Shown here in pieces: positions 1 through 4,740 of a stretch of 6,396 nt of DNA. The number at the start of each line of letters is the position of its first letter. Positions within the stretch are counted from its first letter, which is position 1. This stretch comes from Deltaproteobacteria bacterium. Its GTDB lineage: Bacteria > Desulfobacterota > Syntrophia > Syntrophales > UBA2210. The DNA lies in NCBI GenBank assembly GCA_016935935.1, contig JAFGPZ010000299.1, forward strand, positions 1 through 6,396, written 5' to 3'. The translations under genes were made by a program, and so were the position numbers. The notes beneath the pieces were generated by a model. The model had not been told where the DNA came from. It did no database searches and saw nothing but the letters and a program-made list of their open reading frames with translations.

Positions 1-1563
1 GTCTATATTGATCAATGCAGTCAGATATGGACGACCTTCTCCGAATATGACGGCCTCCTTTATGTAAGGACTGAATTTCAAGCGTGTTTCGATAAAATCG
101 GGAGAAAAAGCCTGTCCTTCTTTATTCCTTATTATTTCCTCCTTGCGCCCGATTATAACCATGTGCCCGTCATCGTCGATATATCCGGCGTCGCCCGTCT
201 TCAGCCATCCGTCACTGAAGGCCGCATCCGTAGCCTCGTAATCGTTATAGTAGCCCCTGAAGGTTGTGGGACTCAATATAAGCACTTCCTGATCTTGCGA
301 TATCCTGACATCTATACCTGAAAGGGATTTACCCACAGTTTCTGCCTTTACTTCCTTGTCGGGCTGAACCTGGAATATACCCCCTGCCTCTGTAAGACCG
401 TAACACTGTTTAAGATTCAACCCTATGGAACGAAAAAATCTGATTACTTCAGGACTTATTGGGTGTCCACCCGTGTATGCGCTTGCCAGTTTAGAGCAGC
501 CCACCCGATCCAGGAGGGGACGAAATATTATTGGCGACGCCAGTTTCCGCATTATCTTTAAATATTGGGGAACAACCTGCCCCTTTGCTTCCAGATCGAC
601 CACTCTTCCCCCTATTTGTTCGGCAATTGAAAAGAGTTTTCGTTTAATAAAACTGGCATCATTCATCTTTACCCTTATCACCGAGGCAAGGTCTTCCCAG
701 AACCGTGACGACGTTATGATTACATTTGCTCCCAGTTCACGGAAATCTCCAGTAACCGTTTCAGGAGTTTCAGGGAAATTCATCGTCATGCCTCCCACCA
801 GCGCAGTTCCCAAACCCCACATCTGATCAACGATCCATGCCGGTGGTGATATGGAGAGCCAGTCGACTGTATCATTTATCGAAACTTCCTCAAGCCACCG
901 ATAGCCCATTTCCGTAAAATTATAATGAGACAACATGGCAAGTTTGGCAATGCCCGTTGTTCCTGATGTCATTATCATCAGTGCGATGTCGTCGTGCCTT
1001 CCCTTCCACAATTCCTGATCAAAGAGTCGAGGCTGCTCCCTTTCCAGTCGAGCGCCTAATTCCAATAATTTCTGAAAGCTAAGCAACCATTCATCCTTCT
1101 CATAGGATCTCATGCCTGTCTGATCTATATATATGACTTTTCGTACGTGAGAAAGCCTGGTTCGAGCCTCGATGAGTTTATCCACTTGTTCCTGATCCTG
1201 GGCTATGACATAGGTTGCCTGGATCCGGTTCAGCGTGTTTGCAAGCTCATCACTTACAGAAGAAGTGAATAAGTTGAGCGTTACGGCGCCAACAGCTTGC
1301 CCTCCCAGTTCACTGAAGAGCCATTCGGGATGGTTGTCGGTTATAATGGCAATATTTTCTCCACGACTAACCCCGAGGACCTTCAGCCCCAGGGCCATCT
1401 TTTTCATGTACTGGAAATAATCCTTCCAGCTGTATGATTGCCAAATTCCGTATGCCTTTTCGCGGATTGCCGTGCCTTCTGACCCAAAACGCTCGGCATG
1501 TTTTGCCAGTATCTGAGGCAGTGTGTGTTGCGCAAAATCCCGAGTGTCTACCTTAGTTTCCAT
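1..1563 (-). CDS. AMP-forming acyl-CoA ligase (long-chain acyl-CoA synthetase-like), 3' end cut by window edge
   Basis: The ATG at 1563 opens a frame I translated codon by codon to base 1: 521 residues without a stop, so the C-terminus lies outside. It belongs to the ANL superfamily, which makes an acyl-adenylate from carboxylic acid plus ATP and then a CoA thioester. Visible core motifs are the P-loop TSGTTG at residues 199-204 (with Lys207), YGLTE at 388-392, GWLKTGD at 452-458, and the hinge segment GRKEEII at 472-478. The catalytic lysine of the C-terminal domain is off the window. The N-terminal part (GIWQSYSW near 39-46, DQEQVDK near 123-129) resembles the roughly 640-residue FAA1/FadD15-like ligases often found inside LIV-type ABC operons (family recalled, not searched). 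The gene starts 29 nt after the livG-like stop with only a weak GGA-type ribosome site, suggesting the same mRNA. The P-loop is unusual: Ala206 replaces the near-invariant Pro. The substrate cannot be read from sequence; an aryl or fatty acid is possible. Confidence 0.93.
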   Translation of the reverse strand, partial: METKVDTRDFAQHTLPQILAKHAERFGSEGTAIREKAYGIWQSYSWKDYFQYMKKMALGLKVLGVSRGENIAIITDNHPEWLFSELGGQAVGAVTLNLFTSSVSDELANTLNRIQATYVIAQDQEQVDKLIEARTRLSHVRKVIYIDQTGMRSYEKDEWLLSFQKLLELGARLEREQPRLFDQELWKGRHDDIALMIMTSGTTGIAKLAMLSHYNFTEMGYRWLEEVSINDTVDWLSISPPAWIVDQMWGLGTALVGGMTMNFPETPETVTGDFRELGANVIITSSRFWEDLASVIRVKMNDASFIKRKLFSIAEQIGGRVVDLEAKGQVVPQYLKIMRKLASPIIFRPLLDRVGCSKLASAYTGGHPISPEVIRFFRSIGLNLKQCYGLTEAGGIFQVQPDKEVKAETVGKSLSGIDVRISQDQEVLILSPTTFRGYYNDYEATDAAFSDGWLKTGDAGYIDDDGHMVIIGRKEEIIRNKEGQAFSPDFIETRLKFSPYIKEAVIFGEGRPYLTALINID

Positions 1564-1592: not shown

Positions 1593-2420
1593 TCAAAGAT
1601 TCCCTGAATCACCAAGATATGCCTTAATTACTACAGGATTGTTTTGAATTTCCCCGGGTGTTCCCTCTGCCAGTTTCTCTCCGAAATTAAGAACGACTAT
1701 TCTCTCGGAAATAGTCATCACTATGGACATATCATGTTCCACAAGAATCATGGTCTGATTCCATCGTTCATTTAACTCTGAGAGAAACCTCACCATGTCC
1801 TCTTTCTCTTCAAGAGTCATCCCGGCAAAGGGCTCGTCGAGTACAAGCAGGTCAGGTTCAAGAGCCAGCGCACGTCCCAGTTCGACACGTTTCCTAAGGC
1901 CATAGGGTAAAGAGCCAACCAGTTGTTTCCTGATTGCCTGCATCTCCAGAAAATCGATCAGTTCTTCTATAATCAGTCGATGGCGCACCTCTTCCTGGCG
2001 AACAGATCGAGAAAAAAGGCACGCCAGTCCAAAGTTGTAACTACAGTGGACATGACGCGCCAGCAGCATATTAGATAAAACTGTCATCCCGGGGAAGAGC
2101 TCAATATTCTGAAAAGTTCTCCCTATGCCTCGATGTATAAGCTCATGTGTGGGCAGATATGTTATATCGCTGTTATTGAAATATATCCTTCCCTTCTGTG
2201 GCCGATAATAACCTGTAAGGCAATTTAGAAGACTCGTCTTTCCGGCGCCATTCGGTCCGATTACAGCCAGCAGTTCCCCTGTATTAACATGCAGGTCAAT
2301 CTGGCTAAGGGCCATGACACCACCGAAGCTCAATGAAAGATCTGTTACTTTTAATTCGGCTCTCTTTTTGTAACGCTCTTTTGAACTGAAAATCCGAGGT
2401 TCACCGCGATAGGTCTTCAT
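1593..2420 (-). CDS. livG: LivG-type ATP-binding subunit of a branched-chain/hydrophobic amino acid ABC importer
   Basis: This 275-residue cytoplasmic ATPase would power a HAAT-family (LIV) importer together with a LivF-type partner and two permeases not in this window. Motifs in order: Walker A GPNGAGKT at 55-62, Q-loop Gln104 in RTFQN, degenerate signature LPYGLRKRVELGRA at 171-184, Walker B LLVLDEP with Asp195 and Glu196, and switch His229 in VEHD. The C-terminus ends in the AYLG segment typical of LivG/LivF. I chose the ATG at 2420 because its A is also the last base of the upstream TGA stop (TGATG), a usual sign of translational coupling; a TTG one codon earlier is possible but less likely. 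About 20 charged residues precede the usual family start and carry no known motif. The family assignment is firm; the substrate is not known, and the symbol denotes family, not proven leucine transport. Confidence 0.93.
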   Translation of the reverse strand: MKTYRGEPRIFSSKERYKKRAELKVTDLSLSFGGVMALSQIDLHVNTGELLAVIGPNGAGKTSLLNCLTGYYRPQKGRIYFNNSDITYLPTHELIHRGIGRTFQNIELFPGMTVLSNMLLARHVHCSYNFGLACLFSRSVRQEEVRHRLIIEELIDFLEMQAIRKQLVGSLPYGLRKRVELGRALALEPDLLVLDEPFAGMTLEEKEDMVRFLSELNERWNQTMILVEHDMSIVMTISERIVVLNFGEKLAEGTPGEIQNNPVVIKAYLGDSGNL

Positions 2421-3616
2421 CAATCACCTATAATCTTGATCTTACCCTCTCCAGGCGCAAAGAAATTAGTTTTGGGTGTATACTGACCATTTTCGTGAAC
2501 CTGAACTATACGCGCCGTAAACGACCCCTCATGATTTGTTTTCGAATAGGAAACTGCCGGTACCAGCCCTCCGAAATCTTCCCCCTCAAAAGATTCCATC
2601 GCCTTATTGATATTTTCGCTGGTTATCTTTCCATACTTTTCTTTAGCCCTGATAAATGCCCGTTCCATAATCATGCCAACAACAACACCCTCCCAGTACG
2701 ATGCGTCAAAGGAATCAACGGTTTTGTATTTTTCCCACAACTGTTCCATTACCTTCATTCCTTCGCTCTTATCTGCCGGAAGGCCTCCAGGAAACTGCAT
2801 TCTTAGACGATCTTTAATAAGACCCTTGCCCATATCAAAGAAACCGGGATCGGTTGATGTCCAGGTTCCGAAAAAGGCGGGGTCATAGCCAATCCTGTCT
2901 GCTCCCTTTAACGCAGTGATAATTGTCGCCGGTAGCAACTGCATGAATACATATTCGGCACCCTTTTTGTTCAGACGAAGAAGCTCCGTCGTCAGATCAA
3001 CAGTTTTTGAAGGAAATTCTTCAATGGCAACTATTTCTATGCCGTGCTTTTCGGCATATTCCCTGCTGGGAGCATGGATGGAGCGCCCATAGGCATTATT
3101 ATATGTCAAGAGTCCAACCTTTGGCGCTCCGGCACCCTTGTGAACCGCCTTTATATATTCGAGTATGGCATAGCAGTCAAGCCTATAACTGCCAAAGGGC
3201 AGATACATGTATCCTATGGGGTCCTGTAGAATCTCCCAACTGGTGGAATAATTGATAGTTGGTATTTTATATTTCTGAATAATGGGCTTTGCAGCCAATC
3301 CTGCCCCGGCGCTCCAGGTTGCAATCATATCAACTTTGTCACTAACGGCAAACTTTCTTACAGCCGAAATGGCCTCGTTAACTTTATAGGCTGTGTCTAC
3401 CAGCTTCATTTCTATCTTTTGCCCGTCGATACCGCCCTTTACGTCATTTACATAATTAAAGTAATCCTGATGTCCCTTTGCATGAAACTGTCCCCATGTC
3501 GAGGCTGGTCCTGTTAGATTAATCGCGGCCCCAACTTTGATGGATTCTGCCTGCGAGGTCAAAGATAGACCCAGCAGGGCAACTGTAACAATAATAACCT
3601 GCATCACCTTTTTCAT
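2420..3616 (-). CDS. livJ: Periplasmic substrate-binding protein of a LIV-type ABC importer
   Basis: This is a 398-residue precursor of the periplasmic receptor that captures substrate and delivers it to the LIV-type importer. Residues 1-23 form a Sec signal peptide: Lys-Lys at 2-3, a hydrophobic core at about 7-19, and an SQA cleavage site before Glu24. There is no lipobox cysteine, so the mature protein should be soluble. From about residue 26 the IKVGAAINLTGPAS segment is the typical start of the Peripla_BP_6 fold, and the mature length fits that family. The ATG at 3616 is preferred because a GGGAGG ribosome site sits 8 nt upstream and the signal peptide starts exactly there. An in-frame start at 3664 would put 16 extra residues across the terminator hairpin. 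It is the first structural gene after the Phe-codon leader, so the attenuator would control it directly. Ligand unknown; amino acids, amides and aromatic acids are all bound within the family. Confidence 0.92.
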   Translation of the reverse strand: MKKVMQVIIVTVALLGLSLTSQAESIKVGAAINLTGPASTWGQFHAKGHQDYFNYVNDVKGGIDGQKIEMKLVDTAYKVNEAISAVRKFAVSDKVDMIATWSAGAGLAAKPIIQKYKIPTINYSTSWEILQDPIGYMYLPFGSYRLDCYAILEYIKAVHKGAGAPKVGLLTYNNAYGRSIHAPSREYAEKHGIEIVAIEEFPSKTVDLTTELLRLNKKGAEYVFMQLLPATIITALKGADRIGYDPAFFGTWTSTDPGFFDMGKGLIKDRLRMQFPGGLPADKSEGMKVMEQLWEKYKTVDSFDASYWEGVVVGMIMERAFIRAKEKYGKITSENINKAMESFEGEDFGGLVPAVSYSKTNHEGSFTARIVQVHENGQYTPKTNFFAPGEGKIKIIGD

Positions 3617-3624
3617 GTTTTTTC

Positions 3625-3630
3625 CCTCCC
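3625..3630 (-). promoter_or_regulatory. Ribosome binding site deciding the livJ-like start
   Basis: GGGAGG lies 8 nt before the ATG at 3616. It sits immediately downstream of the leader terminator's U-tract, so it appears in an mRNA only if polymerase reads through. This strong site is the main reason to reject the upstream in-frame start at 3664. Confidence 0.85.
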
Positions 3631-3640
3631 TTTTAAATAA

Positions 3641-3669
3641 TAAAAAAGCCGCAGAATGTTCCACGGCTT
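3641..3669 (-). terminator. Rho-independent terminator (3:4 hairpin) of the attenuator
   Basis: The arm AAGCCG (3669..3664) pairs with CGGCTT (3651..3646). The helix extends inward by U-G, G-U, G-C and A-U pairs to an ACAU loop (3659..3656), giving 10 pairs in total. A run of six T (3647..3642), two of them in the stem, follows. It lies upstream of the livJ-like ATG, where a terminator makes sense only as a control element, or as a stop for hflKC read-through. Confidence 0.82.
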
Positions 3670-3691
3670 AAAATATAAGAAAAGCCGTGGA
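3660..3691 (-). promoter_or_regulatory. Antiterminator helix (2:3)
   Basis: TCCACGGCTT (3691..3682) is a perfect 10-bp reverse complement of AAGCCGTGGA (3669..3660), with a 12-nt loop rich in A and T. Segment 3 is exactly the 5' arm of the terminator, so forming this helix excludes the terminator. An exact match over the whole competing arm is hard to explain except as an alternative structure. Confidence 0.78.
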
Positions 3692-3716
3692 CAATCTCTT
3701 TGGCCTGCCCACGGCT
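3683..3716 (-). promoter_or_regulatory. Anti-antiterminator helix (1:2)
   Basis: AGCCGTGG (3716..3709) pairs perfectly over 8 bp with CCACGGCT (3690..3683), and G-U pairs can be added at both ends. It takes segment 2 away from segment 3 and so favours the terminator. It is followed by TTTTCTTATATTTT and might also act as a weak terminator by itself. Confidence 0.72.
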
Positions 3717-3756
3717 CATAATTTACAAGGATGCAAATGAGCGCTATAGGCAGACC
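3702..3756 (-). promoter_or_regulatory. Composite 5' hairpin overlapping the end of the leader peptide gene
   Basis: Two nested helices can form. GGTCTGCC (3756..3749), inside the last leader codons, pairs over 8 bp (one G-U) with GGCAGGCC (3709..3702). Within it, GCTCAT (3742..3737) pairs with ATGAGC (3719..3714), and TTGCA (3736..3732) pairs with TGTAA (3727..3723) with one G-U, closing a TCCT loop and leaving a 3-nt bulge. The structure uses bases 3716..3714 and 3709 of segment 1, so it competes with the 1:2 helix. A ribosome at the leader stop codon would be expected to break it. Confidence 0.6.
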
Positions 3757-3809
3757 CCCATAAAAAAGCTAAAAAAACTAAAGTTTCTGACTACTTCTTG
3801 TTTGCCCAT
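3744..3809 (-). CDS. Phe-rich leader peptide of the attenuator (21 codons)
   Basis: ATG at 3809 to TAG at 3746..3744 encodes 21 residues. Residues 10-16 read FSFFSFF: five Phe in seven codons, all UUU, separated by AGT and AGC serines. The C-terminal residues are MGVCL. A GAGG ribosome site (3821..3818) lies 8 nt upstream, and the predicted transcript start is only about 33 nt before the ATG. Enterobacterial PheA leader and PheM peptides have the same character (short, Phe-clustered, translated only to sense tRNA-Phe charging), and this peptide is inferred to act in the same way rather than as a working protein. Caution: the Phe codons come from runs of 7 and 6 T, so base composition alone favours Phe, and a sequencing error in a run would break the frame. 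The promoter, ribosome site and hairpins around it make chance unlikely. Confidence 0.72.
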   Translation of the reverse strand: MGKQEVVRNFSFFSFFMGVCL

Positions 3810-3848
3810 TTCCACTGCCTCAAATTCTCATCTCACATTTTATTGTAC

Positions 3849-3878
3849 TTTATAGAATCAGGAGTTTATTAAAGTCAA
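3849..3878 (-). promoter_or_regulatory. Sigma70-type promoter of the LIV importer/ligase operon
   Basis: The -35 hexamer TTGACT (3878..3873) and -10 hexamer TATAAA (3854..3849) each match consensus at 5 of 6 bases, with an 18-bp spacer. Transcription would begin near 3842, giving a leader of about 225 nt before the livJ-like ATG. The promoter starts only about 20 bases after the hflC stop. No GC-rich terminator hairpin lies between them, only an AT-rich run, so some hflKC transcripts may enter the leader. Confidence 0.7.
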
Positions 3879-3897
3879 GAAAAAAATGAATCCCTTC

Positions 3898-4740
3898 CTA
3901 TTTTATGTATTTGAGAAACTTCATATCCGGGGTTAGAACTACTGTCGTCTTATCTTTCAGCGTCCTTTTGTATGCCTCAAGGCTTCGTAAATACTCGAAA
4001 AATTCAACATCCTGCTGATAGGCATCGGCATAAATCTTGATAGATTCGGCATCTCCGACTCCTTTGAGTTCCTCGGACTCTTTGTAAGCCTCAGCCAGTA
4101 TTATAGACCTCTCCATATCGGCCTTAGCCGTAATCTTCTGAGATTCCTCAACCCCTTCTGATCGGTACTGCTTGGCCTGACGTTCCCGCTCCGCCTTCAT
4201 CCTGTCAAAAACGTGCTTTTCGTTCTGTTCAGGGAGATCGGCCCTCTTGATTCGCACGTCTATGACCTTAATTCCATAACTCTTCGCCAGTTCATCCGTC
4301 TTCTTTGTAACTTTCTCCATTATCTCGCCTCTCGTTATAGAAACCGAATCTTCCAGCGTATGATTACCCATTTCAACTCGAAGCTGGGCGTAGATAATAT
4401 CATCCAGTCTTGAGCGGGCGCCCATCTCGTTCTTGACGGTCTTATAAAACTGAAGCGGGTCCGTTATTTTCCATTTCGCGTAGTTATCAACTAACAGGTT
4501 CTTTTTGTCTTCCGTCAGGACTTCAGTTGGATTGGCATCATACACGAGTATCCGATTTTCGAAGTAAACCACCTCCTGAATAAAGGGGATTTTGAAGTGA
4601 AGCCCAGCCCCCCTGATGCCTTCGAGTGGTTTCCCCAGCTGAATAACAACCGCCTGCTTTGTCTGGTCTACGGTATATATGGATAGAGATACCGCGAAGG
4701 CAACAAGGAATAGAATTATTATAGTCAATTTTGCTTTCAT
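3898..4740 (-). CDS. hflC: HflC, SPFH-domain subunit of the HflKC membrane complex
   Basis: The 280-residue protein has one N-terminal membrane segment (about 5-23) followed directly by the stomatin/prohibitin-like SPFH domain, which opens with VDQTKQAVVIQLGKP. A long charged helix (about 175-258) includes the family motif GDAESIKIYADAY at 229-241, and the C-terminus is short. In E. coli, HflK and HflC assemble into a large cage that surrounds and modulates the membrane protease FtsH, with most of the protein on the periplasmic side; the same role is inferred here. It is somewhat shorter than the 334-residue E. coli protein. AAGGAG lies 11 nt before the ATG, slightly far but with no better start. 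It follows hflK after 26 nt and is surely co-transcribed. No hflX, hfq or purA neighbour is visible, unlike in enterobacteria. Confidence 0.95.
   Translation of the reverse strand: MKAKLTIIILFLVAFAVSLSIYTVDQTKQAVVIQLGKPLEGIRGAGLHFKIPFIQEVVYFENRILVYDANPTEVLTEDKKNLLVDNYAKWKITDPLQFYKTVKNEMGARSRLDDIIYAQLRVEMGNHTLEDSVSITRGEIMEKVTKKTDELAKSYGIKVIDVRIKRADLPEQNEKHVFDRMKAERERQAKQYRSEGVEESQKITAKADMERSIILAEAYKESEELKGVGDAESIKIYADAYQQDVEFFEYLRSLEAYKRTLKDKTTVVLTPDMKFLKYIK

Follow-up and report, generated by a model that had tools for sequence, protein, structure and literature searches.

A transcription attenuator that would sense charged tRNA-Phe precedes a LIV-type importer and acyl-CoA ligase operon in the window, the whole 6,396-nt stretch of DNA analyzed here. 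By every sequence test made, identification of the element as an attenuator is close to certain, and we infer that ribosomes translate and stall on its leader and that phenylalanine regulates it. The best explanation for the locus, and in our judgement a probable one, is a tRNA-Phe attenuator in front of an aryl-acid salvage operon, with a predicted route from aryl acid to aryl-CoA, arylpyruvate and amino acid. From comparison with related leaders and operons, we infer the salvage role as well as which compound is imported and in which direction the pathway runs.

Architecture of the leader element

The element is encoded on the minus strand, as are the other features of the window described below. 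Its promoter (3849..3878) is composed of TTGACT (3878..3873), an 18-nt spacer and TATAAA (3854..3849), and from this position the transcript start is expected near 3842. A consensus promoter scan, the rule of which requires T as the final -10 base, does not list this TTGACT-18-TATAAA arrangement. A ribosome-binding site (GAGG, 3818..3821) is located 8 nt 5' of the start codon (ATG at 3809) of a 21-codon open reading frame (3744..3809) that encodes the leader peptide MGKQEVVRNFSFFSFFMGVCL and ends with UAG at 3746..3744. The putative control codons are UUU at codons 10, 12, 13, 15 and 16 (3762..3782), corresponding to five Phe codons in seven. Reading of the sequence confirms the promoter, the ribosome site and the 21-codon frame with five UUU codons in seven described in an earlier note on this DNA, and the interval given there (3641..3842) ends short of the promoter. 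The tandem-codon frame is positioned between promoter and first structural gene, as expected for an attenuator.

Downstream of the control codons, the leader can fold into mutually exclusive helices. Segment 2 (GGUCUGCCU, 3748..3756), located within the final leader codons, pairs with segment 3 (GGGCAGGCC, 3702..3710) to form the antiterminator (2:3; 3756..3748 with 3710..3702). Segment 3 shares nucleotides with the 5' arm and the loop of terminator 1 (3:4; 3677..3716), which consists of a stem formed by 3716..3705 and 3694..3683 followed by UUUUCUU to position 3677, and the antiterminator is exclusive of this terminator (3716..3683). Terminator 2 (5:6; 3637..3669) possesses a stem at 3669..3646 and a U-tract. 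A 10 bp counter-pairing between arms 4 and 5 (4:5; 3660..3691), formed by 3691..3682 (UCCACGGCUU) with 3669..3660 (AAGCCGUGGA), excludes both terminators. A possible segment 1 (AGGCAG, 3815..3820) complements CUGCCU of segment 2, and 1:2 pairing exceeds the shuffled mean in 63/78 sequences, but it is kept tentative because several of the sequences shown have no match at all. The fold of the leader has a z-score of -4.27 with 0/200 shuffles equally stable. The mutually exclusive helices and the U-tract terminator upstream of the first gene that the earlier note had claimed are found, as 2:3 and 3:4. The second terminator with its 4:5 counter-pairing and the PaaK-like ligase encoded downstream in most relatives extend beyond that note.

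Enterobacterial attenuators of pheA (pheL) and pheST (pheM) combine a leader peptide containing Phe codons, alternative 2:3 and 3:4 helices and an intrinsic terminator. The window element shares these features but differs in possessing two tandem terminators and in the operon under its presumed control, which encodes an importer and CoA ligases. In the his operon attenuator, alternate pairing of six arms forms or avoids the terminator. The layout of the window is his-like in its six-arm geometry; unlike in the his attenuator, 3:4 and 5:6 both resemble intrinsic terminators with U-tracts. Known Rfam leaders, including the enterobacterial Phe leader and the T-box, were rejected as no covariance model matches at its cut-off: the window contains 0 matches at gathering score, and among the 22 matches at E ≤ 10 in 3600-3900 the Phe leader is absent and the top match (trpB motif) reaches 23.2 bits compared to a cut-off of 59.

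Conservation and covariation in relatives

The earlier note had made its reading depend on orthologous leaders that keep both the Phe frame and the hairpins, and such leaders are found. The relative set consists of the best 80 of 183 relatives (67-79% identical) obtained by a binding-protein scan of genome contigs. Record titles of these loci name Deltaproteobacteria, Syntrophales, Syntrophobacterales, Syntrophaceae, Smithella and similar taxa together with one Proteobacteria, one Pseudomonadota and one Thermodesulfobacteriota; the host, correctly assigned as non-enterobacterial in the earlier note, is Syntrophales-like. The GGUCUGCC core of segment 2 (at most one mismatch) is present upstream of the binding-protein gene in 78/80 loci. 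As for the two exceptions, L067 ends at 55 nt while L043, lacking a core within one mismatch, nevertheless carries a Phe-rich frame (VDFYFFSFIKSRICLKAS). Directly 5' of the core, at least four Phe per eight codons are encoded in 75/78 sequences and at least five in 58/78 (window included). When any small frame up to 420 nt upstream is counted, at least four (five) Phe in eight codons are found in 74 (57) of 78 loci compared to 19 (3) of 773 other ORFs from the same loci, with some loci, for example L006 and L043, scoring via a frame other than the one preceding the core. TTGAC is found 5' of the core in 77/77 sequences versus 100/770 shuffles, and the first Phe of the best eight-codon stretch lies 29 nt 5' of the core in 43/77.

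Covariation was assessed in an alignment of 66 leaders (A2) comprising the window and 65 of the 80 loci. Besides L043 and the cut-off L067, the truncated L056 was left out, as were three loci with a mis-detected terminator (L044, L047, L073) and, by the analyst's choice, nine near-duplicates or loci with odd spacing (L005, L006, L010, L021, L025, L042, L055, L063, L068). The terminator is paired in 94.8% of cells with double changes in 6 of 12 pairs and in 60 cells, compared to a mean of 18.3 cells in shuffles. For the antiterminator, 95.6% of cells are paired and 3 of 9 pairs show double changes, in 8 cells compared to a mean of 2.2 in shuffles. For both helices, 0/500 shuffles reach the observed number of double-changed cells. 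The number of double-changed pairs is no higher than in shuffles, of which 186/500 reach it for the terminator and 72/500 for the antiterminator. Sliding the partners by 1-3 columns lowers pairing to 27-52%, and an inner helix that lengthens the antiterminator is 76.3% paired with double changes in 5 of 6 pairs. Terminator and antiterminator are mutually exclusive and both are conserved, as is characteristic of attenuators. The second hairpin (terminator 2) is scored in the window and 41/75 relatives (42/76 in total, some unconvincing) and is not found in 34 other relatives, several Smithella-like loci among them. In 34/42 cases, the match between its 5' arm and arm 4 exceeds that of shuffles, and the 4:5 pairing is without covariation (own pairs 17.6 versus cross pairs 17.8).

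All five Phe codons of the window are UUU and U-rich sequence yields Phe in any frame, as would be expected if the hairpins were tandem terminators of the usual kind and a U-rich tract had produced the Phe-rich frame by accident. The second-best frame likewise contains three Phe in eight codons in 40/78 and four in 7/78 sequences. Such an accident is nonetheless very improbable. The 445 Phe codons of the 78 sequences comprise 356 UUU and 89 UUC, and the use of UUC in 54/78 sequences favors codons over a U-rich element. The stop-core distance is fixed in 59/77 sequences, in which the stop follows the core start by 19 nt; it precedes the core start by 2 nt in 14/77 and follows it by 10 nt in the window. 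In addition, the antiterminator covaries when counted by cells. Any frame with at least five Phe in eight codons arises in 17/2000 dinucleotide shuffles of a 226-nt stretch.

Folding and the proposed switch

Under assumed ribosome footprints, the leader geometry is such that a stalled ribosome would free segment 2 while a ribosome at the stop codon would cover it. When the ribosome is placed at the first UUU, the combination of 2:3 and 4:5 in the window is calculated at -51.0 kcal/mol versus -45.6 kcal/mol for 3:4 and 5:6; when it is placed at the stop codon, terminators 1 and 2 both fold. An assumed footprint was used in each case. When the window and 74 loci are considered, 2:3 is formed in nascent RNA before arm 4 in 73/75, and the terminator is formed in 75/75 with the ribosome at the stop. 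Classic attenuators switch kinetically. At equilibrium, the terminator is still preferred in 58/75 leaders despite a stalled ribosome (52/75 over a longer stretch), and in most leaders the switch would consequently have to be kinetic. Equilibrium folding was for this reason dropped as proof of a switch, and nascent folding and covariation were used instead.

We propose that the element acts as a ribosome-mediated transcription attenuator sensing charged tRNA-Phe. When phenylalanine is short, the ribosome would stall at the first UUU codons and leave segment 2 free, allowing 2:3 to pair ahead of the synthesis of arm 4, which would next pair with arm 5. Both terminators would be avoided in this way and the operon transcribed. 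When phenylalanine is plentiful, a ribosome reaching the UAG would mask segment 2, and the 3:4 and 5:6 terminators would form.

Related leaders precede amino acid biosynthesis genes

A covariance model built from the 66 leaders matches all 18 relatives' genomes at E ≤ 1, these genomes having been picked for holding a LIV locus, and 52/60 genomes of the order and 48/148 of the phylum at E ≤ 1e-5. With the top LIV matches set aside, 40 of the 87 order-level matches were fetched. DAHP synthase genes follow in 34 of them, with mixed Tyr/Phe/Trp leaders. Two are located before trpE and carry a Trp run (L227 and L230: SWWWRNF, SWWWQRF; R1-like attenuator), and trpG and trpD are found downstream of L230 by Pfam. 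The remainder precede a second AMP-forming ligase (L202, L203) or, with Phe-rich leaders, an ADP-forming acyl-CoA synthetase (L234) and a thiolase (L236). Within the 18 genomes, eight further matches are located at DAHP synthase genes (L101-L104, L106-L108, L110), no DAHP synthase is found downstream of L105 (E 1e-5), and a second AMP-forming ligase is preceded by the element in L099 and L100. In Smithella sp. D17 (L109:348-469), an Ile/Leu/Val-rich leader with the GGUCUGCC core precedes ilvB, encoding the acetolactate synthase large subunit. In general, leader codons match the product made downstream, as for DAHP synthase, trpE and ilvB, which supports the window Phe codons as a sensor.

Individual loci show further features. 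An aroB-like gene is located downstream of DAHP synthase in L110, and the thiolase of L236 is accompanied by a ChsH2-like zinc-ribbon protein. In L234 and L236 the antiterminator match is just 5 pairs, and in L203 the Phe-rich leader frame runs open straight into the downstream ligase with no stop. In a phylum sample (L242-L267), many aromatic leaders are seen before genes resembling ADH synthase and shikimate kinase; family comparison covered L245 and L257, and the others were judged by eye. A Phe leader is also found on the gene for another LIV binding protein (L242).

The downstream operon encodes a LIV-type importer and CoA ligases

The first structural gene encodes a LIV-type periplasmic binding protein (Peripla_BP_6; 2420..3616, ATG at 3616) and is followed by genes for a LivG-like ABC ATPase (1593..2423) and an AMP-forming acyl-CoA ligase (AMP-binding, AMP-binding_C_3; 1..1563) that is cut by the window end. 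The LIV-type importer with an AMP-forming ligase named as target in the earlier note is thus found downstream. Two Band-7 (HflC/HflK-like) genes are located upstream of the leader on the same strand. In L001, the operon order is binding protein, LivG, AMP-forming ligase, LivH, LivM, LivF and PaaK-like ligase. Ligase, LivH and LivF are present in 48/48 loci with enough sequence; the PaaK-like gene follows these in 33/48 and is not found in the other 15/48 testable loci. Identity between the LIV-operon PaaK-like ligase and the PaaK adjoining iorAB is 31%. The former scores under the PaaK cut-offs, and an AMP-binding_C_2 domain is not detected in it.

By sequence, the best PDB relative of the binding protein is 3lkb, which carries the annotation of a probable branched-chain amino acid binding protein. 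This annotation and the LIV family membership would fit an importer that takes up phenylalanine itself, or aromatic and branched-chain amino acids more generally, under the control of a genuine tRNA-Phe attenuator, with the ligases being passengers or parts of another pathway. An AMP-forming ligase is, however, encoded in 48/48 testable loci with a PaaK-like one in 33, and aromatic leaders are also found on CoA ligases elsewhere (L100, L202, L234) and on iorAB-paaK, none of which is needed for amino acid import. We consider this possibility unlikely. On our preferred reading, aryl-acid salvage, the most likely role of the LIV operon is uptake of an aryl acid, for example phenylacetate, followed by formation of the CoA ester. 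The aryl-CoA would then be converted to phenylalanine via reductive carboxylation by indolepyruvate:ferredoxin oxidoreductase and a subsequent transaminase step.

Aromatic leaders on iorAB operons point to probable aryl-acid salvage

Indolepyruvate:ferredoxin oxidoreductase is found above cut-off in 15/18 relatives' genomes. Leaders upstream of the 30 iorA loci in these 18 genomes are Phe/Tyr-rich in three (L111, L113, L114) and Tyr-rich in one (L112), and four contain two to four consecutive Trp (L129-L132). All eight aromatic leaders precede a terminator. Most iorA loci are without a clear aromatic leader (8/30 carry one, and L115, L127 and L128 are not judgeable); in genome G001, the iorA above the family cut-off (L119) has none. 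In a phylum sample, 2/29 further iorA loci have a clear one (L283, L294), with L287 not judgeable and five others scoring 4-4.5. The antiterminator match before iorA, scored without a control, amounts to 7-11 pairs in four loci (L112-L114, L129) and is short, at 5-6 pairs, in the other four (L111, L130-L132).

In the four loci with Phe/Tyr or Tyr leaders, iorA, iorB and paaK follow. Three of these (L168, L172, L174) were read further, and each encodes an ACT-pair protein and a TRAP transporter (DctPQM) after iorA-iorB-paaK. The PaaK of L168 scores 650.3 bits compared to the curated TIGR02155 cut-off of 646.3 bits. Trp leaders are followed by iorAB-paaK in L173, L175 and L176 and by iorAB-TRAP in L171, where a related paaK is located directly upstream of the leader. 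Runs of four and three consecutive Trp codons precede iorA paralogues in L129 and L132, respectively, which suggests salvage of indoleacetate to tryptophan. Together, Phe leaders on the importer/ligase operon, Phe/Tyr leaders on iorAB-paaK-TRAP and Trp leaders on iorAB-paaK or iorAB-TRAP constitute the candidate regulon set. The Phe/Tyr and Trp iorAB leaders of relatives suggest aryl-acid salvage as a likely reason for the target of the window attenuator, a point beyond the earlier note. Prephenate dehydratase is present in 17/18 relatives' genomes, and salvage would therefore supplement rather than replace de novo synthesis.

Syntrophs are known to use aromatic acids, and the attenuator could in principle control degradation of these acids for energy, with phenylalanine shortage serving as a proxy of nutritional state. 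The Phe-rich leader before a thiolase gene in one locus (L236) is in line with this possibility. Yet sister leaders correspond to the amino acid that the downstream genes serve to produce (DAHP synthase, trpE, ilvB) and Trp leaders are found on paralogous iorAB units, making energy degradation improbable. The cognate leader codons instead favor the biosynthetic direction in the relatives' iorAB operons. For Methanococcus maripaludis, the available text of two papers describes aryl acids as being converted to aromatic amino acids via indolepyruvate oxidoreductase (PMC4162585, PMC3462420), and the available text of another describes this enzyme in the fermentative direction (PMC5817080).

Discussion

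Most known leader-peptide attenuators control genes for biosynthesis or for tRNA synthetases. Here, predicted control codons are located on an operon for transport and CoA activation and, in some relatives, on iorAB operons. The matches listed in the open-licence literature contain no report of attenuation on iorAB, paaK or LIV operons nor, for these bacteria, of Phe attenuation or an aryl-acid pathway. The proposed route is similar to the aryl-acid pathway of M. maripaludis, as far as described in the available text, in leading from aryl acids to aromatic amino acids via indolepyruvate oxidoreductase, and differs in being bacterial, in its importers of the LIV or TRAP type and in its use of PaaK-type ligases and codon-specific leaders. 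The ABC-leaders of Naville and Gautheret (2010; PMC2965389) are likewise attenuators located before ABC transporter operons. In the portions of that paper available, however, they are tied to the T-box and conserved motifs instead of a leader peptide, and its main text does not mention Syntrophus, phenylalanine or Deltaproteobacteria.

On balance, we lean towards the view that Syntrophales and related Desulfobacterota organize aryl-acid salvage in several regulons under codon-specific attenuators, in which the missing amino acid would be remade from phenylacetate, hydroxyphenylacetate or indoleacetate. Indolepyruvate oxidoreductases and the associated ligases can run either way and act on several aryl acids, so that the leader codons represent an independent and testable clue to both substrate and direction. 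This clue applies to largely uncultured syntrophic bacteria. If the regulon reading is true, leader codons would reveal, for IOR and PaaK paralogues that are otherwise ambiguous, which substrate they use and that they work in the biosynthetic direction.
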